Positions 30,378-46,621 of a DNA stretch of 64,000 bases are shown piece by piece. The number at the start of each line of letters is the position of its first letter. The stretch's first letter is position 1. Position numbers and translations under genes: made by a program. Source of the stretch: Haloarcula halophila (GTDB taxonomy: Archaea; Halobacteriota; Halobacteria; Halobacteriales; Haloarculaceae); contig NZ_CP119559.1 in the NCBI RefSeq assembly GCF_029278565.1, positions 1,612,001 through 1,676,000 on the forward strand. The letters run 5' to 3'. The notes under the pieces are model-generated. The model ran no database searches. It saw only the letters and a list, made by a program, of their open reading frames with translations, and was not told where the DNA came from.

Positions 30378-31610
30378 TCATCCCCGGCCTCCCAGTTTCG
30401 AGATGGCCGAGAAGGCCTTCTTCCGGACGGTCTCGTTTTCGGTCTCGTCGATGAGTTTGTCCAGTACCTTCCGGGAGCGCTCGCCGCCGACTTTCCCGAG
30501 CGTGAAGATCGCTTGCCCACGGACGGCCGGATCGACGCCGGTGTCCTCGACGATCGGGAGCAGGCGCCGCTCGACCATCCCGTCGTCGTCGTCCAGTTCC
30601 GCCAGGCTCGTCGCGGCGAACTGGCGGATCATCTGCCCGTCGTCGGAGAGCGCGTCGACCAGGGCGTCGATGACCCGACTCCGTTCTGCCTGGGTCGTCA
30701 CGCGACCGAGGAGCCAGGCGGTGTTGCGCCGCTGTGCGGCCTGGGTGCTCTCTTCGAGGATCTCGACCAACGGGACGACGACGCTTCGGTCGTCCGTGTT
30801 CGAGAGCTTCTCGACGACGGTCTCGCGGATCTCGTGGCTCTGATCGGTCGGGACGTTCGAGAGCAGTTCGATCAGCGAGTACACCGCAGTCCGGCGAACG
30901 CCCGGCGAGTCGTCGGAAAGGGCCTCGGTGAGATAGTCGACGGGCTGGTCGTTGTCGAAGTTGCCGAAGGCGTCGACCGCGATCCGTCGGACCTCCTCGT
31001 GGTCGTCCTCGTACAGCGGGAGGAGGGCTCGCAGCGCCTGCCGGTTGCCGATGTTCCCGAGCGCCCGCGCGGCTTCGCGGCGGACCGCCGACGATGAATC
31101 GGTCAGCAACGATTCGAGCGGGTCCGTCGCCCGCGAGTCACCGATCTTTCCGGCCGAACGGGCCGCTCGCGCCCGGACCCGCGGGTCCGGATCGTCGAAC
31201 CGCTGGGTGAGTTTCGGGACGGCGTCGGCCTGGTCGAGTCCACCGAGGGCGTTGGCCGCGGCCATCCGCAGTTCCGGGACCTCCGCGTCCAGCGCCTGCG
31301 TGTAGGCCTTTGCTTTCACCCAGTCGGCCGAGTCCTCGTCCAGATCGACGCCGGCCATGGTACCGATGAGCTGTTCGATCGCGTCCCCACCCAGTTCGTC
31401 CAGCGAGTCGATCGCCGCGGCCGTGACGGCGTCGCTGTCCCGCTGTACAGCCGTGACCAGGGCGTTGACCACGTCCCGCCGGTCGTCGTGGTCGGGGAAG
31501 TTCCCCAGCAGTTCGGCCGCGCGGGTCTGGACGCGCTCGTTGTCGCTCTCGCGAAGCACCCGGATGAGTTCCTGTACCTCGCCGTCCCGTTCCAGTTCGT
31601 AGAGGCTCAT
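30378..31610 (-). CDS. HEAT/PBS-lyase repeat protein of the archaeal chemotaxis system
   Basis: 410 residues built almost entirely of about 30-residue HEAT/PBS-lyase repeats (for example VRARAARSAGKIGDSRATDPL and VRREAARALGNIGNRQALRAL). A HEAT-repeat protein of this kind next to cheF is the archaeal partner that binds CheF and archaellum components in H. salinarum. Its start ATG 31610 overlaps the cheR stop by 4 nt, so translation is coupled; the frame to 31664 lies inside cheR and is not used. It is expected to act as a cytoplasmic scaffold. Confidence 0.88.
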   Translation of the reverse strand: MSLYELERDGEVQELIRVLRESDNERVQTRAAELLGNFPDHDDRRDVVNALVTAVQRDSDAVTAAAIDSLDELGGDAIEQLIGTMAGVDLDEDSADWVKAKAYTQALDAEVPELRMAAANALGGLDQADAVPKLTQRFDDPDPRVRARAARSAGKIGDSRATDPLESLLTDSSSAVRREAARALGNIGNRQALRALLPLYEDDHEEVRRIAVDAFGNFDNDQPVDYLTEALSDDSPGVRRTAVYSLIELLSNVPTDQSHEIRETVVEKLSNTDDRSVVVPLVEILEESTQAAQRRNTAWLLGRVTTQAERSRVIDALVDALSDDGQMIRQFAATSLAELDDDDGMVERRLLPIVEDTGVDPAVRGQAIFTLGKVGGERSRKVLDKLIDETENETVRKKAFSAISKLGGRG

Positions 31611-32416
31611 ACCCGTCGGTAGATGCGGTGTTGCTTGTCGACCGGTTCGAAGGAGTCCCGACATTCGGTGGGGAGGGTCTCGGTCATCCCGATCATCAGG
31701 TACCCCCCCTCCCGGAGCGAGCCACGGATCGTCTCGAAGATGGGGACCTTGTACTCGGAGTCGATGTAGATGAGGAGGTTCCGACAGAAGACCAGATCGA
31801 AGTCCCGCTTGGGGTCCCCGCGGATGAGGTCGTGTTGCTCGAAGGTGACCATGTCGGTGACGTGATCGCGGACCCGAAACGTGTTGGCGTCCTGTTCGAT
31901 GTACTCGGCGTAGTCTTCGAGCGGTTCCAGTTCCTCCGCGATATCGGTCGTCTGTGAGGTCTCGTAGGTCGCCCGGCGGGCCTCACGGAGGATGTCGGCG
32001 TTGATGTCGGTCCCGGTGATCTCGACGCGCCGGGCGTCGATCTCGGGATCGTCGAGCGCCAGCATCGCCGCCGAGTACGGCTCCCTGCCGTCGGCACTGG
32101 GGGCCGACCACAGTCTGACCCGGCGGTTCTCCTCGGTCAGTTCCCGCAGGACCGGGCGCAGCGCTTCCCAGGCCTCGGGGTTGCGGAAGAAGCCCGTGAC
32201 GTTGATCGACAGCGAGTCCAGCAACTGTTCGCGTTCGCCCTCGTCACGCTGGAGCAGTTGCTTGTAGGCCCGGTAGGTCTCGGTGTCGGTCCGGCGCATC
32301 CGGGCGGTGATCCGCCGGTCGAGATACGCGTCGTTGTAGAAGCCCGACTCGAACTCCATCTCGTCGCCGATGAACGCCAACAACTGGCTGAACTGTCTGT
32401 CGCTCCCTTTGTTCAT
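31607..32416 (-). CDS. cheR: Chemotaxis protein methyltransferase CheR
   Basis: Methylates glutamates of transducers using S-adenosylmethionine for adaptation; 269 residues. The N-terminal helical domain has the basic DRRITARMRRTDTETY helix, and the SAM-binding domain includes LSINVTGFFRN, LRLWSAPSADGREPYS and DLVFCRNLLIYID. It overlaps cheA and the HEAT-repeat gene by 4 nt each, typical of a tightly coupled operon. Note the SAPSADG motif, where CheR proteins often read SAACSTG. Confidence 0.95.
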   Translation of the reverse strand: MNKGSDRQFSQLLAFIGDEMEFESGFYNDAYLDRRITARMRRTDTETYRAYKQLLQRDEGEREQLLDSLSINVTGFFRNPEAWEALRPVLRELTEENRRVRLWSAPSADGREPYSAAMLALDDPEIDARRVEITGTDINADILREARRATYETSQTTDIAEELEPLEDYAEYIEQDANTFRVRDHVTDMVTFEQHDLIRGDPKRDFDLVFCRNLLIYIDSEYKVPIFETIRGSLREGGYLMIGMTETLPTECRDSFEPVDKQHRIYRRV

Positions 32417-35545: not shown

Positions 35546-35602
35546 GAAATAAATACTCCGACCGTGTAATCAAAGTTGATATCCCAGCAGGCAGTTTTAT
35601 GC
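35546..35602. promoter_or_regulatory. Divergent cheB/cheW promoter with near-perfect TATC-N6-GATA operator
   Basis: AATC-AAAGTT-GATA at 35567-35580 is a one-mismatch copy of the motility operator. It lies between a minus-strand TATTTATT box for cheB (35555-35546) and a plus-strand GTTTTATG box for cheW (35594-35601). Distances from dyad edge to each box are about 11 and 14 nt, so one site could serve both directions. Confidence 0.55.
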
Positions 35603-36161: not shown

Positions 36162-36887
36162 ATGATAGAAATAACGAAAACAGGCATCGAGGGGCTCGAT
36201 TCCATTCTAAACGGCGGCATTGTCACCGATTCGACGACGCTGGTGAGCGGAAACCCGGGCGCCGGGAAGTCGATCCTCTGCCTTCAGTACATCTACAACG
36301 GCGTCGACCAGTTCGACGAGAAGGGGATCTACCTCTCTTTCGAGGAAAACGAAGCGGATCTCCGGGAGGCAGCGGAGTCGATCGGCTTCGACAAGTGGCC
36401 GGAGTTCGTCGAGAACGGCGACATCAAGGTGTACGACAAACAGGTACTGCTGCGGGAAAACGACTTCTCCTCGTCGCTCGATCTCCTCCTCGACGACCTC
36501 GAAGACGAAGAGTACGATCGGCTCGTCCTCGACTCGCTTGCGATGTTCAACCTCTTCTTCGACGACGAAGCCGAGAAACGGACGTATCTCCTGAAGTTCA
36601 CCGATATCCTGCGGAGTAACGGACTCACCACGCTGATGACCAACGAGCAGGGGGCGGTCTTTCCGGACACCGAGATCGGGCTAGAGAACTACCTCACCGA
36701 CGGGAACATCTACCTGATCCAGACGCCGACCGACTCCGGCGTCAGCCGATACGTCTGGGTGGCGAAGATGCGCAAGCAGGACATCGAGACGGATATCTTC
36801 CCGATGGAGATCGAGTGGGGTGGGATTCAAGTCCACGAAAACGCGAGCGCGTTCTCGATGATGAGCGAAGAGGATTCGCCGCTCTAA
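36162..36887 (+). CDS. Single-domain KaiC/RadA-like ATPase
   Basis: 241 residues of one KaiC-type RecA fold. Walker A is GNPGAGKS at 30-37, the paired acidic residues are in YLSFEENEADL, and Walker B is in DRLVLDSLAMF. It is related in fold to ArlH but clearly a separate gene; arlH is at 47517-48281. It lies between cheW and the winged-helix gene, inside the motility cluster, so a signalling or switch role is possible, but nothing in the sequence proves it. ATGATAGAAATAACG-type AT-rich start codons and a CTTTTTACC box upstream define the start. Confidence 0.8.
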   Translation: MIEITKTGIEGLDSILNGGIVTDSTTLVSGNPGAGKSILCLQYIYNGVDQFDEKGIYLSFEENEADLREAAESIGFDKWPEFVENGDIKVYDKQVLLRENDFSSSLDLLLDDLEDEEYDRLVLDSLAMFNLFFDDEAEKRTYLLKFTDILRSNGLTTLMTNEQGAVFPDTEIGLENYLTDGNIYLIQTPTDSGVSRYVWVAKMRKQDIETDIFPMEIEWGGIQVHENASAFSMMSEEDSPL

Positions 36888-36991: not shown

Positions 36992-37018
36992 AGCTATCAA
37001 AGGCGATAGCTTTATGAA
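36992..37018 (+). promoter_or_regulatory. Operator abutting the TATA box of the winged-helix gene
   Basis: AGCTATC at 36992-36998, six bases AAAGGC, then GATAGCT at 37005-37011 form a perfect 7-bp-arm dyad containing the TATC-N6-GATA core. The TATA element TTTATGAA (37011-37018) begins on its last base, about 28 nt before ATG 37044. A protein bound here would cover the TFB/TBP site, so repression is expected. Confidence 0.65.
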
Positions 37019-37043
37019 ATACTGAATTCATAATCTGATAACG

Positions 37044-37379
37044 ATGGCTTCGGCGGAGATCCTACAGACGCTGGGGAACAAATACAGCGCCGAGATTCTC
37101 GATGCCACCGACGAACCCGTGTCGGCCCAAGATCTGAGCGACGAGCTGGGCATTCCGATCGCGACATGTTATCGGCGGATCGACGAGCTCACCGAGCACG
37201 ATCTGCTCGAACTACACGACAACATTCTCTCCGACGACCGGCGGCGCATCAAAGTGTACCGCCGAAACGTCGACGAACTCCGGGTCGACTTCGAGGACGA
37301 GATGACGATCCACATCGAAGAGCGGTCGGAAGTGACGAACAAACTCGACGAGGCGTGGCGAACCCTCTCGGACGGCTAA
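37044..37379 (+). CDS. Small winged helix-turn-helix regulator of the motility cluster
   Basis: 111 residues. A winged helix occupies residues about 1-75: LGNKYSAEILDATDEPVSAQDLSDELGIPIATCYRRIDEL, with recognition helix near IATCYRRID, then a wing LSDDRRRIKVYRRN. A short C-terminal acidic helix could dimerise. It resembles ArsR/MarR-like archaeal regulators. Its promoter carries the TATC-N6-GATA dyad fused to the TATA element, while motility promoters carry the same core upstream of TATA. The inferred role is an autorepressor and regulator of archaellum and chemotaxis genes. No direct proof; another protein could bind these sites. Confidence 0.85.
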   Translation: MASAEILQTLGNKYSAEILDATDEPVSAQDLSDELGIPIATCYRRIDELTEHDLLELHDNILSDDRRRIKVYRRNVDELRVDFEDEMTIHIEERSEVTNKLDEAWRTLSDG

Positions 37380-37400: not shown

Positions 37401-37435
37401 TATCAGCAGAGATATTTTAGAGGGTGGATTTATGC
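37401..37435 (+). promoter_or_regulatory. TATC-N6-GATA operator and TATA box of the 3-TM gene
   Basis: TATC-AGCAGA-GATA at 37401-37414, then TATA-like GATTTATG at 37428-37435, about 25-32 nt before ATG 37460. The whole stretch from CGTTATCAG to GATATTTT is nearly identical to the archaellin 1 promoter at 37903-37923. Confidence 0.6.
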
Positions 37436-37459: not shown

Positions 37460-37741
37460 ATGCCGATGATAGAGCTCCTCTATACGGTTTCGACCCTGGT
37501 GTTCGTCGTCGCGGGCCTCACCATGGTCGGAATGGCGATGCGGGCGTACGTCCAGACATCACGGCGAGCAATGCTGCACCTGTCGGTGGGGTTTTCCCTC
37601 GCTGTCGCGGGCGCAGCCGCGACGATGATCAGCGCGTTCGTCAACGATTTCACCGGCGTCAAATCGTTGTTGCTCGTCAACAGCGGCCTCACGACCTTCG
37701 GGTACCTCTTCGTGATGTATAGCTTGGTTACCTACGAGTAG
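37460..37741 (+). CDS. Small three-helix membrane protein in the motility cluster
   Basis: 93 residues with three hydrophobic helices (about 5-27, 38-62 and 66-90) and short loops; no catalytic motif. It reads YTVSTLVFVVAGLTMVGMAMRAY, then HLSVGFSLAVAGAAATM, then VNSGLTTFGYLFVMYSLV. It sits 81 nt downstream of the winged-helix gene with its own promoter, which is nearly a copy of the archaellin promoter. Small 3-TM proteins next to winged-helix genes are frequent in haloarchaea but unassigned. A link to archaellum assembly or regulation is inferred from promoter identity. Confidence 0.75.
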   Translation: MPMIELLYTVSTLVFVVAGLTMVGMAMRAYVQTSRRAMLHLSVGFSLAVAGAAATMISAFVNDFTGVKSLLLVNSGLTTFGYLFVMYSLVTYE

Positions 37742-37905: not shown

Positions 37906-37978
37906 TATCAGGAGAGATATTTTCGGGAGAGGTATTATAACCAGTGAAACAGACGAACTGATAGGGTCAGAGAGACCC
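37906..37978 (+). promoter_or_regulatory. Archaellin 1 promoter: operator, TATA box and 5'-UTR hairpin
   Basis: TATC-AGGAGA-GATA at 37906-37919 is followed 15 nt later by ATTATA (37934-37939). The transcript would have a leader of about 25 nt containing the stem GGGTC-AGAGA-GACCC (37964-37978), ten bases before ATG 37989. The hairpin is conserved in the archaellin 2 leader. Upstream, an imperfect inverted repeat GGAAACGGAC/GTCCGGTTCC lies at 37839-37866. Confidence 0.6.
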
Positions 37979-37988
37979 GGACCAACCA

Positions 37989-38594
37989 ATGTTCATGGAA
38001 TCAGACGAGGACCGCGGGCAAGTCGGGATCGGCACCCTCATCGTGTTCATCGCGATGGTGCTGGTCGCCGCTATCGCCGCAGGCGTCCTCATCAACACCG
38101 CCGGCTTCCTCCAGAGCAGCGCCGAGGAAACCGGACAGCAGAGTAGCGACCAAGTCACCAACCGCCTCGAAGTCGTCAACACCGTCGGTGACGACATCAA
38201 CCAGGACGATAAAGTGATCCACACGGTCGAGGTGACGGTCAAGAAGGCACCCGGTGCGGCCAATATCGATATGGGTAGCACTATCGCCCAGTGGGTCGAC
38301 ACCAGTGGCTCCTACGACCTTACCTACGGAGAGTCTGCAAATGCCTCGTACTTCTCCATTAGTACTGTTCAAGACGACGATTCGTCGATCACGGACAGCC
38401 AGGTGCTGAACGACCCATCGGATCGTGCGACGCTCAAGTTCAGTGCGCAAAGTATTCGTGGCGGGACCAATACTGATGGACTCGGTGAGGGTGAAACTGC
38501 AACCATCCAACTGAACACCCAGTCCGGCGGGACCACGACGGTCCGCCTCGTCACTCCGGAGACCTTGTCCGGTAACTCCGCGGTCACCCTGTAA
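37989..38594 (+). CDS. arlA: Archaellin (archaellum filament protein) 1
   Basis: 201 residues. The short class III signal [10 protein letters not shown] is followed by [31 protein letters not shown], the filament-core helix; cleavage by the prepilin peptidase is expected after G10. The surface domain is beta-rich, Asp/Ser/Thr-rich and ends [29 protein letters not shown] and similar sequons could be glycosylated. It is closely paralogous to the next gene, with near-identical N-terminal coding DNA. The stop is followed by GCTCTTTTCG, a likely terminator. Confidence 0.96.
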
Positions 38595-38718: not shown

Positions 38719-38792
38719 TATCAAGATGGAAATTTGCGGGAGAGCTATTATTACCAGTGAGAAAACTGTATTCAGTAGGGTCAGACAGACCC
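38719..38792 (+). promoter_or_regulatory. Archaellin 2 promoter with degenerate operator and 5'-UTR hairpin
   Basis: TATC-AAGATG-GAAA at 38719-38732 is the archaellin operator with one changed base in the second arm, followed at 38746-38754 by TATTATTAC as TATA element. The leader contains the stem GGGTC-AGACA-GACCC (38778-38792), matching archaellin 1. A weaker operator could lower expression of this paralogue. Confidence 0.5.
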
Positions 38793-38802
38793 GGACAAAC
38801 CA

Positions 38803-39447
38803 ATGTTCATGCAATCTTCAGATGACGACGACCGCGGGCAGGTCGGGATCGGTACCCTCATCGTGTTCATCGCGATGGTGCTGGTCGCCGCTATCGCCGC
38901 AGGCGTCCTCATCAACACCGCCGGCTTCCTCCAGAGCAGCGCCGAGGAAACCGGACAGCAGAGTAGCGACCAAGTCACCAACCGCCTCGAAGTCGTCAAC
39001 ACCGTCGGTACCGAAATCAACGGTGACGCGAAGACGGTCGACCTGGTCGAGGTGACGGTCAAGAAAGCGCCTGGTGCGGCCAACATCGACCTCGGGAGTA
39101 CCATCGCTCAGTGGGTCGACACGACCGGCTCGTACGATCTCACCTATGGCGACAACACGGGCAATACCGATGCGCCGAACTCGACGGCGTTCAGCGTCGA
39201 CGGGGTGCAGGACGACGACTCGTCGATCTCAGACAGCCAGGTCCTCAACGACCCGGCCGACCGAGCGACGATTACCTTCGACGTGGACGACATCCGTACG
39301 GACAGTAACGACGCCAGTTACGACGGCGACGGCCTCGGTGAAGGTGAAACTGCGACCATCCAAATGAACACCCAGTCCGGTGGGACCTCGACCGTCCGCC
39401 TCGTCGCTCCGGAGACCCTGTCCGGTAACTCCGCGGTCACCCTGTAA
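38803..39447 (+). CDS. arlA: Archaellin (archaellum filament protein) 2
   Basis: 214 residues, paralogue of the preceding archaellin. The signal is [12 protein letters not shown] and the core helix is the same [13 protein letters not shown] segment. The central surface part is longer and differs ([31 protein letters not shown]), while the end NSAVTL is shared. It contains an NST sequon. The 5' third is almost identical in DNA to gene 1, suggesting recent duplication or gene conversion. It has its own promoter and a T-rich stretch after the stop. Confidence 0.96.
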
Positions 39448-39516: not shown

Positions 39517-40083
39517 ATGGCACAGGGGTCAGACGACACGAACCCTGAGGACGGGAAGATTCTCTCCCCCGAGGAGCTCGACATCGCGGAGGACGAACAC
39601 GTCACACAGATCGACGACGGGCGGTACGTCGTCTCCTCGGACGTGCGGACCGACGAGAAGTACGGGAACGCCGCGAACACAGCTGACCCCCAACCGGAAC
39701 CCACCCCGGAGCCGGAACCCGACCCGACGCCGGAGTTCACCGACGCGAACGTCCACGAGTGGCTGGCCGAGCAGATGGACGACTCCAACGCCCGGTACGG
39801 CTTCGACGTGACCGCGAAGTTCGACGGCGAAGTCGACCAACAGCAGTTGGTCTCGAACGACATCGTGACCGTTTTCGAGAGCTTTATGCTCTGGTACGGG
39901 CGGCAGATGGACGGTTCGACCCCGGTCGAAGACGTACTGGGTATTCTGCTCTCGGAGTCGAACGTGCCGGTTCGATACCCGCCCGAGAGCATCAAGACGC
40001 TGTTACGGTCGACCCAACTCTCGCCCGACGATACGATCGCCGACCTCATCGAAGCAGTCGACGACGACGGGATCGAACTCTGA
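39517..40083 (+). CDS. Conserved archaellum-cluster protein of unknown function
   Basis: 188 residues, no signal or membrane helix. An acidic N-terminus (SPEELDIAEDEHVTQIDDGRYVVS) leads into a Pro/Glu-rich spacer of repeated PEPE/PTPE units (about residues 58-75) and an alpha-helical C-terminal domain (NDIVTVFESFMLWYGRQ, SPDDTIADLIEAVDDDG). I cannot assign a function; proteins of this layout are found near haloarchaeal archaellin genes. GTTATACC at 39488-39495 is about 25 nt before the ATG. No TATC-N6-GATA dyad is seen upstream. Confidence 0.75.
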   Translation: MAQGSDDTNPEDGKILSPEELDIAEDEHVTQIDDGRYVVSSDVRTDEKYGNAANTADPQPEPTPEPEPDPTPEFTDANVHEWLAEQMDDSNARYGFDVTAKFDGEVDQQQLVSNDIVTVFESFMLWYGRQMDGSTPVEDVLGILLSESNVPVRYPPESIKTLLRSTQLSPDDTIADLIEAVDDDGIEL

Positions 40084-42570: not shown

Positions 42571-42606
42571 TATCAGACGCGATAATTTACGGGACACCTT
42601 TATTTA
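42571..42606 (+). promoter_or_regulatory. TATC-N6-GATA operator and TATA box of cheY-cheC-cheD
   Basis: TATC-AGACGC-GATA at 42571-42584, then CCTTTATTTA at 42597-42606, which gives a short leader to ATG 42638. GATA-to-TATA spacing (about 13 nt) matches the archaellin promoters. Confidence 0.6.
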
Positions 42607-42637: not shown

Positions 42638-42997
42638 ATGCCAGACGTACTGATAGCCGACGACTCGGAATTTATGCGTAACCTCCTGCGTGAGATTCTG
42701 GAGGAAGACCACGACATCGTTGGCGAGGTCGAGAACGGTGTCGAGGCTGTCGAAGTGTACAAAGAGGAGACCCCGGATCTGGTGATGATGGACATCGTCA
42801 TGCCGATCCGGGACGGGATCGAAGCCACCGACGAGATCAAGACGTCGAACCCCGAGGCCAACGTGATCATGTGTACGAGCGTCGGCCAGGAAGAGAAGAT
42901 GAAAGAGGCCGTCAAGGCTGGCGCCGACGGCTACATCACCAAACCGTTCCAGAAACCGAGCGTGATGGAGGCAATCGAGGACGTCGTCCCGTCATAG
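42638..42997 (+). CDS. cheY: Chemotaxis response regulator CheY
   Basis: 119-residue single receiver domain. The acidic pair is D8/D9, phospho-acceptor D52 lies in VMMDIVMP, the conserved Thr/Ser is in IMCTSVGQ, and the lysine is in YITKPFQ. Phospho-CheY signals to the archaellum through CheF in archaea. It is the first gene of cheY-cheC-cheD; its stop directly precedes the cheC start. Confidence 0.97.
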   Translation: MPDVLIADDSEFMRNLLREILEEDHDIVGEVENGVEAVEVYKEETPDLVMMDIVMPIRDGIEATDEIKTSNPEANVIMCTSVGQEEKMKEAVKAGADGYITKPFQKPSVMEAIEDVVPS

Positions 42998-44931: not shown

Positions 44932-44962
44932 TATCACTTGTGATAGGCTAGACGGAATATTG
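44932..44962 (+). promoter_or_regulatory. TATC-N6-GATA operator and TATA box of the arlCE-J operon
   Basis: TATC-ACTTGT-GATA at 44932-44945, with extended arms TATCAC/GTGATA, is followed about 10 nt later by GAATATTG (44955-44962), 31-38 nt before ATG 44993. The surrounding 44870-44970 stretch is markedly AT-rich. A leader hairpin CTGAG/CTCAG is possible near 44971-44987. Confidence 0.65.
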
Positions 44963-44992: not shown

Positions 44993-46621
44993 ATGAACAG
45001 TCCCGCTCTCGTCGCGGCGCTCGCGGATCTCGCCGCGCCAGCGCTGGTGGTGCTTCTGTCCGGCGGGCTGGTCGGCATGAGCATCAAGAACATGTTCGAC
45101 TCGATCCTGTCGGACGACGGGAGCGACGACGACGACGGCGACGACGGTGACGGGATGGCCGACGGCGGCGGGCTGATGGCCGAGGAGGGCGGCGGCGACG
45201 ACGACCTCGGCGGGCTAGGTGGTTTCGAGGACGAGGACGACGAGATGGGTGGGTTCGGTGACGACGAGTTCGGCGATATGGAAGACGCCACCGGCCCGGA
45301 TACCGACGAACTCGAACACCGGTTGGACGAACTCGAAAACGAGGTCGGGAGCCTCTCTTCGACGGTCAACACCGTCCGGACCGAGAACGAGAGCATCTCC
45401 GAATCCGTCGAGGAGGTCGAAGAAAACGTCCGGAAACTGCTCGATATCTACGAGATGGTCACGCGTGGCGTCAATCCCTTCGCCGACGACGTCGACGCCG
45501 GGATGGGCGGCGGAATGGACGGTGACGGCTCGTTCGGCCTGTTCGACGACGACGGCGGAGAGGACGAGGCTGAACTCGACGACGACATCGCCAACGCCGA
45601 CGCCGAGGGGTTCTTCGACGAGGACCTCGTCGAGGACGACGGCGGCGATATGGGGATGGGTGGCGGCGACGACGTCGACGATATGTTTCCCGAAGAGGGT
45701 GGGGACGACTTCGATGACGACGGCGGCGCGTTCGACGAGGAGTTCGACGACGGTATGGAGATGGACGAGGATATGAGCATGGACGACGGACTAGAGGCAG
45801 ACGACAGCATGGAAGCGGACGACGGGGACGACGGCGGTGACGGCGGCAAGTCCTTCGCCGAGTTGAAAGACGAGTACGAGTCCGGTGACGCCGACTGGGC
45901 AGAGGGTGAGGAGCCGGACGCCGACGACGACGGCGAGGAGCTGTTCGACGACGGGATGGACGACGAGATGCTGACCGACGATTCGATGGACGACGGTATG
46001 CTCGAAGCGGATGACGACGGCATGGAGGTAGACGAGGAGAGCCTCGAAGACGACGACCTCTTCGACGAGGTCATCGACGACGAGCCGGAAGAGACGACGG
46101 CAGCGGAGTCGGCCGAACCGACGACCGAGTCCGAGCCCGCCACCGAGCCTGAGCCGGAGCCTGCCACCGAACCAGATCCCGAACCGGAGCCCGACCCCGA
46201 GTCTGAGCCGGCCCAGGCGGAGACGGCCTCGACCGAATCCGAGACGGAGACCCGAAGCGAGGACGATTCGGCCGACGGGAGCGGAAAGCCGTACCTGTCG
46301 ACCCTCCCCGACGGCTTCGGGTCGGAGCTCATCATCGTCGAGTGGTTGGAGTTCCTGGTCAGCGAATCGGGATACCGCGAGGCGACCAGAGCGATCGAGT
46401 ACTACGAGACCATCGACTGGATCGACGCCGCCGTCGCAGCGGACCTGCGAACCTACCTCCAAGGGTTCGACGACGTCGACGACAGCGGCGAGCCACTGAC
46501 GATCGACCACCACACCGAGAGCCTGACCTACATCGCACAGCTCGACGGTGACAGCGGGGCCGAGGGCGTCGCGCTCTCGAAGCTCGTCCGTGGAGGTGGT
46601 TCCGATGGGCTTCAGCGTTAG
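44993..46621 (+). CDS. arlCE: Archaellum motor/switch protein, fused ArlC-ArlD/E
   Basis: 542 residues. The N-terminal hydrophobic stretch (about 5-30) may anchor the protein. A coiled coil (DELEHRLDELENEVGSLSSTVNTV) plus VRKLLDIYEMVTRGVNPF is the ArlC part. A very acidic low-complexity linker, rich in Asp, Gly and Met and later in repeated PEPEP units, spans about 280 residues. The ArlD/E domain then begins YLSTLPDGFGSELIIVEWLEFLV at about 431. In haloarchaea ArlCE forms the cytoplasmic ring that receives CheF/CheY. No separate arlD gene is present in this operon. Confidence 0.9.
   Translation: MNSPALVAALADLAAPALVVLLSGGLVGMSIKNMFDSILSDDGSDDDDGDDGDGMADGGGLMAEEGGGDDDLGGLGGFEDEDDEMGGFGDDEFGDMEDATGPDTDELEHRLDELENEVGSLSSTVNTVRTENESISESVEEVEENVRKLLDIYEMVTRGVNPFADDVDAGMGGGMDGDGSFGLFDDDGGEDEAELDDDIANADAEGFFDEDLVEDDGGDMGMGGGDDVDDMFPEEGGDDFDDDGGAFDEEFDDGMEMDEDMSMDDGLEADDSMEADDGDDGGDGGKSFAELKDEYESGDADWAEGEEPDADDDGEELFDDGMDDEMLTDDSMDDGMLEADDDGMEVDEESLEDDDLFDEVIDDEPEETTAAESAEPTTESEPATEPEPEPATEPDPEPEPDPESEPAQAETASTESETETRSEDDSADGSGKPYLSTLPDGFGSELIIVEWLEFLVSESGYREATRAIEYYETIDWIDAAVAADLRTYLQGFDDVDDSGEPLTIDHHTESLTYIAQLDGDSGAEGVALSKLVRGGGSDGLQR

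Follow-up and report, generated by a model that had tools for sequence, protein, structure and literature searches.

In the middle of the archaellum and chemotaxis (arl/che) gene cluster of Haloarcula halophila lies a short gene for a winged-helix protein. The questions are which promoters this protein controls and whether its own promoter is one of them. The initial annotation of the window (the whole stretch of 64,000 nucleotides that was analysed) placed a 111-residue winged-helix protein between a KaiC-like gene and the archaellins, and this arrangement is indeed present:

36162 to 36887, plus strand: cirA orthologue (KaiC-like; KaiC match with E 9.7e-47), directly upstream of csmR
37044 to 37379, plus strand: csmR orthologue; ATG at 37044, stop at 37377-37379; open reading frame of 111 residues, 12.86 kDa

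The gene order is KaiC-like gene, csmR, a DUF7521 gene and then two archaellin genes (arlA1 and arlA2). The surrounding cluster contains cheF, cheR, cheA, cheB, cheW, cheY, cheC, cheD, arlC/E, arlH, arlI and arlJ, as well as a further archaellin-like (arlF/G) gene. A gene for a HEAT-repeat protein (30378-31664, minus strand) is situated between cheF and cheR. The csmR product matches the winged-helix Pfam family HTH_20 (E 2.9e-12; 46.8 bits against a cut-off of 27). Relatives with 48-94% identity are found in 75 named haloarchaeal loci, the nearest of which (about 89-94%) belong to Haloarcula and the former Halomicroarcula, and a clear orthologue is present in most of 391 genomes.

A regulator of this kind has recently been described in Haloferax volcanii. 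CsmR (HVO_1209) is a winged-helix protein of 13 kDa encoded upstream of arlA1 and arlA2 (Nussbaum et al., June 2026, PMC13286277). Its ChIP-seq motif, TATCA(N4)TGATA next to TATA, was present in 50 of 65 peaks. Deletion of csmR abolishes motility and its overexpression makes the cells hypermotile; the deletion raised the arl and che transcripts although swimming was lost (PMC13286277). Two Haloferax-like genomes (L245 and L246), of inferred genus and with the published gene order, stood in for H. volcanii, so that the identities given here refer to these genomes rather than to the HVO_1209 sequence itself. The window protein is 58% identical over 110 residues to the product of the gene in the csmR place of their csmR-arlA1-arlA2-(convergent KaiC/cirA) locus. 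The window KaiC is 68% identical to that encoded convergently with arlA2 and, judged by this identity, is the product of the cirA orthologue. Together with the published gene order, the 58% identity identifies the window protein, at the level of sequence, as the CsmR orthologue, and the regulator itself is therefore already known. That a motility regulator binds TATC-N6-GATA, as the initial annotation had proposed, was right and is already in print for the H. volcanii protein (PMC13286277).

The window gene shares with H. volcanii csmR the size of its product (about 13 kDa), the winged helix, the orthologous locus with a place before the archaellin genes and a cirA neighbour, the motif, and the predicted placement of the site next to TATA at motility promoters. 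The loci differ in that the window cirA immediately precedes csmR and has the same orientation, whereas in the Haloferax-like genomes it is convergent and follows arlA2. The arrangement of the window, with cirA about 880 bp before csmR, is found in nearly all Haloarculaceae loci. They also differ in that the window csmR promoter has the motif over BRE, whereas this promoter lacks it in the Haloferax-like genomes. A DUF7500 gene (39517-40083, plus strand) follows arlA2 in the window, and its relative is divergent from csmR in the Haloferax-like genomes, so that DUF7500 appears to travel with the archaellin region.

An AlphaFold2 model of CsmR calculated from 34 orthologues (pLDDT 85, pTM 0.75) most closely resembles the ArsR-type protein Phr of Pyrococcus furiosus (PDB 2P4W, E 1.5e-05) and PH1932, followed by the ArsR-type repressors CadC and CzrA. 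The published structural work, which used an AlphaFold 3 dimer, also reported Phr as a fold match (PMC13286277). PH1932 was found, weakly, upon searching the solved structures with a CsmR alignment; the search with a single CsmR sequence gave no match. Membership of Lrp/AsnC, the class assigned in PMC13286277, is supported neither by Pfam, in which the HTH_AsnC-type match has 16.3 bits against a cut-off of 27, nor by the fold search, in which no entry so named is among the best 50 matches of the model. Based on Pfam and the model, we would call CsmR an HTH_20/ArsR-type protein rather than a member of Lrp/AsnC. Phr represses from a site over the start of transcription, which is where the csmR operators of many lineages lie, but it has 198 residues, is about 23% identical to CsmR and acts on heat-shock genes. 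EarA of Methanococcus and Pyrococcus is likewise a winged-helix archaellum regulator that binds just upstream of BRE, but is reported to resemble CsmR neither in sequence nor in structure (PMC13286277).

The exact palindrome TATC-N6-GATA occurs six times in the window, versus 0.13 occurrences expected, and none of 100 shuffles reaches six. Five of the six are promoter sites, and the sixth (26934) is away from the arl and che promoters. Two more promoter sites have one mismatch, at 35568 (cheB/cheW) and 38719 (arlA2). The predicted sites, none of which has a strand, and the elements of the csmR promoter are as follows:

35568 to 35581: predicted CsmR site common to the divergent cheB (minus strand) and cheW (plus strand); TTTAT at 14 bp on either side
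36992 to 37011: candidate csmR operator AGCTATC-AAAGGC-GATAGCT; overlaps BRE and abuts TATA
37011 to 37016, plus strand: csmR TATA box TTTATG, 28-33 bp before the ATG of a putatively leaderless promoter; TTTAT-type box conserved
37036 to 37041, plus strand: TGATAA half-site at the putative csmR start site; TGATAAC in 15 of 15 Haloarcula/Halomicrobium promoters
37401 to 37414: predicted CsmR site upstream of DUF7521 (37460-37741); spacing of the target type throughout Haloarculaceae
37906 to 37919: predicted CsmR site of arlA1 (37989-38594); exact palindrome
38719 to 38732: predicted CsmR site of arlA2 (38803-39447); one mismatch (GAAA)
42571 to 42584: predicted CsmR site of cheY (42638-42997); exact palindrome
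44932 to 44945: predicted CsmR site of arlC/E (44993-46621); perfect TATCA(N4)TGATA, weak TATA

The eight sites counted previously correspond to seven palindromes serving eight promoters, if cheB and cheW, which are divergent, each count as one promoter. No CsmR site was found in the promoter of the window's cirA orthologue.

Downstream of the end of the palindrome, TTTAT begins at 14 bp (equivalent to TTAT at 15 bp) in the cheW, cheB, DUF7521 and cheY promoters, and TTAT begins at 15 bp in those of arlA1 and arlA2; arlC has a weak ATATTG at 11 bp. In the csmR promoter, TTTAT begins at 2 bp (TTAT at 3 bp), 12 bp closer than at the targets. These spacings confirm the geometry noticed earlier, with the operator upstream of TATA at the motility promoters and over the TATA/BRE region at csmR. 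The 7 bp arms AGCTATC/GATAGCT, singled out before as the longest, do exist at 36992-37011, but this outward lengthening is not a conserved feature: only 3 of 15 non-redundant Haloarcula/Halomicrobium csmR promoters have a C in front of TATC. A weight matrix built from archaellin sites gives 9.1 for the csmR site, whereas the archaellin sites themselves have a median of 18.7, with 12.8 as their 5th percentile. Arm length was consequently rejected as a measure of operator strength.

The target arrangement is predicted well outside the window. In loci that contain csmR, a site deviating from TATC-N6-GATA by no more than one base is present in 94 archaellin promoters, and in 88 of these TATA starts 14-16 bp after the site. 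The consensus of the archaellin sites is TTWTCA(N4)NGATAWT. The matrix score is at least 10 at the archaellin promoter in 91 of 92 csmR-positive loci, a result that is partly circular because the matrix was built from these sites. As independent evidence, none of 14 genomes that have archaellins and lack a close csmR has an archaellin site at the target spacing. The top score among genomes without a close csmR is 10.3, in a single genome whose TTAAT is at 12 rather than 14-16 bp; in its sister genome the homologous promoter has a score of 0.6, and none of the remaining genomes exceeds 7.6. The ambiguous genome G060 was set aside from the 14. Its archaellin promoter (L159) retains a CsmR-like site whose spacing is roughly right, its best csmR match has only E 2e-16, and a clear csmR is present in other genomes of its genus. 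In H. halophila a further archaellin gene lies far from the cluster (L162; G000:C1:2021630-2022157, minus strand) and has a degenerate promoter site, TCTCACCGCTAATA.

A strict combination of site and TATA (TATCA or TTTCA, N5, GATA, 13-16 bp, TTAW) matches four times in the whole 4.04 Mb genome, three of these matches being in the cluster, and the reversed-pattern control does not match at all. The fourth match, the sole strict CsmR-type promoter elsewhere in the genome, is found in front of a gene for a 328-residue soluble chemotaxis transducer (L244; G000:C1:1404654, minus strand). The idea that all 44 TATC-N6-GATA places in the genome are targets was ruled out, as those beyond the window all lack a TATA at the distance seen at the targets. 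Around base 1058 of L170, the site TATCAGACGCGATA, which has the same core as that of cheY, is situated 3 bp before TTTTA, and the gene resembles an alpha-glucosidase. The geometry is csmR-like, of the repressor type, and possibly arose by chance.

Every Haloarcula examined has a csmR site abutting TATA, apart from L016, which has one mismatch. In 15 non-redundant Haloarcula/Halomicrobium csmR promoters, TATCA is kept in 14-15 and CGATA in all 15, while the flanks vary. The right half of the palindrome coincides with BRE, which persists in promoters that have lost the left half; the conserved left arm TATCA stands outside the core promoter elements. In other families, the full palindrome stands where the window csmR has the TGATAA half-site. 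A site is found in 55 of 105 non-redundant csmR promoters (p <= 0.05; about 5 expected) and, by the same test, in 2 of 43 neighbouring kaiC/cirA promoters, showing that the core-promoter motif at csmR is not a by-product of regional composition. These sites are mostly within the core promoter, either over BRE or clustered before the ATG, ending at 3-6 bp (genus g20, family f6 and several others) or at 18-20 bp (Natrialbaceae). The site is upstream, 51-70 bp before the ATG, in genus g22 (L120, L131, L132 and L135), which belongs to the family of the Haloferax-like genomes, and at 52-57 bp in a few other promoters. No site was found in eight Haloferax-like csmR promoters or in those of the family-f2 genomes L133, L134, L138 and L139. 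The position is thus lineage-dependent and some lineages have no site, ruling out BRE-overlapping autoregulation in all haloarchaea. The window site taken alone has p = 0.08 against shuffles, which is not significant, so that the case is carried by conservation rather than by this site as a statistical proof.

Archaeal regulators act as repressors when bound over BRE/TATA or downstream of it, whereas sites upstream of BRE usually lead to TFB/TBP recruitment and activation. TrmBL1/Tgr and VNG1451C have such a dual function, set by the position of the site relative to BRE/TATA, but are of another family (TrmB), for which the Pfam match of CsmR (E 0.013) is below the cut-off. The csmR operator lies within the core promoter of its own gene, as expected of a negatively autoregulated regulator, and by the position rule the window's lineage would have a self-repressing CsmR. 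The gene is likely to be under negative autoregulation in Haloarcula as well as in several other lineages. CsmR, probably dimeric, would bind TTWTCA(N4)NGATAWT. At arlA1, arlA2, arlC, cheB, cheW, cheY and DUF7521 it would bind immediately before BRE/TATA, with one fixed helical position in nearly all cases, and there most likely contacts TFB/TBP and sets transcription. At its own promoter it would sit 12 bp closer, atop BRE, and exclude TFB, most likely causing self-repression. Since the csmR site is weaker by the matrix, it would fill only when CsmR is abundant, and the feedback would then keep the level of CsmR steady. We give this explanation as a whole (a CsmR orthologue, control of targets from a fixed position, and self-repression through a weaker BRE site) a probability of about 0.7. 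Its basis is the sites, their spacing and conservation, the co-occurrence with csmR, and the orthology to a protein tested by ChIP-seq; from these we infer binding in H. halophila, dimerisation, autorepression and the sign at the targets.

The earlier suggestion that the protein represses itself is thus supported by the comparison of 105 promoters for most lineages, including that of the window, but does not extend to the Haloferax-like genomes, which have no site. The comparison suggests, with good support, that csmR is autorepressed in most haloarchaeal lineages and not in Haloferax, which appears to be unreported: the text of PMC13286277 does not mention feedback or the promoter of csmR. 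Given the lack of a site in the Haloferax-like promoters, work on H. volcanii would miss the feedback. The regulator and its motif were known (PMC13286277), and the comparative evidence on the csmR promoter is new.

The possibility that the csmR palindrome is a coincidence, its right half being simply BRE (CGATAG-TTTTAT), its left half fortuitous and csmR constitutive, agrees with the persistence of a CGGTAG/CGATAG-TTTAT block in genera without the left half and with a csmR transcript that is stable across conditions in H. volcanii (PMC13286277). It is nevertheless quite improbable in view of the TATCA arm kept in divergent promoters despite their variable flanks, the full start-site palindrome of other families, and the excess of sites over the control promoters. 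Only a little less improbable is that some lineages use CsmR as an activator of csmR itself, from a site upstream of TATA, so that the sign of autoregulation varies among haloarchaea. The target-like positions in genus g22 and the few others point that way, but this reading is inapplicable to the window, where, as in nearly all Haloarcula, the site abuts TATA. The genome encodes at least 12 related winged-helix proteins, and one of these paralogues might occupy the sites instead of CsmR; this is very unlikely indeed, given that ChIP-seq of the orthologue yielded the same motif and that, from genome to genome, the archaellin site goes along with csmR.

Regarding the sign at the targets, activation, as initially proposed, has a chance of slightly more than one half. 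It is favoured by the fixed spacing upstream of TATA and by archaeal precedent, but the increase of arl and che transcripts in the H. volcanii deletion strain argues against simple activation. The original proposal would have been contradicted by archaellin and che transcription that stays the same in a deletion strain; in H. volcanii transcription does shift, but upwards. On the other hand, CsmR might repress everywhere, bound next to BRE at the targets and over its own core promoter, with the mutant immotile because of mis-timed or unbalanced expression. The genes most upregulated in the H. volcanii deletion strain are those with motif-bearing, promoter-proximal peaks, and the authors write of direct derepression in one passage; elsewhere the same authors deduce positive regulation from the position of the site (PMC13286277). 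General repression is nonetheless rather unlikely, since a TATA spacing of 14-16 bp over 88 promoters exceeds the needs of a blocking protein and since overexpression of CsmR increases motility. The preferred self-repression of csmR may be part of a wider, more tentative picture, to which we give somewhat less than even odds, in which CsmR has a dual action that depends on the position of its site. Its negative feedback loop would be under selection in most haloarchaea, with the operator moved between BRE and the start site, and would have been lost in Haloferax. If this is true, the loss of feedback in Haloferax, the only genus studied, could help to explain the paradoxical results in H. volcanii.

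The main haloarchaeal regulator of the archaellum has thus been newly described in a single species, together with the paradox that its deletion gives no motility and more transcript. The upstream spacing at the targets, combined with the core-promoter position at csmR, permits a sharp and cheap test of activation, repression or both, and Haloferax is suggested to be an atypical place to look for a CsmR feedback loop.

The DUF7521 gene between csmR and arlA1 (37460-37741, plus strand, 93 residues) has a predicted CsmR site of its own, which is kept in Haloarculaceae. By the test used for csmR, the site is found in 19 of 29 DUF7521 promoters, mostly at a target-like distance of 45-54 bp. Judged by these promoters, DUF7521 is likely an unstudied motility gene.
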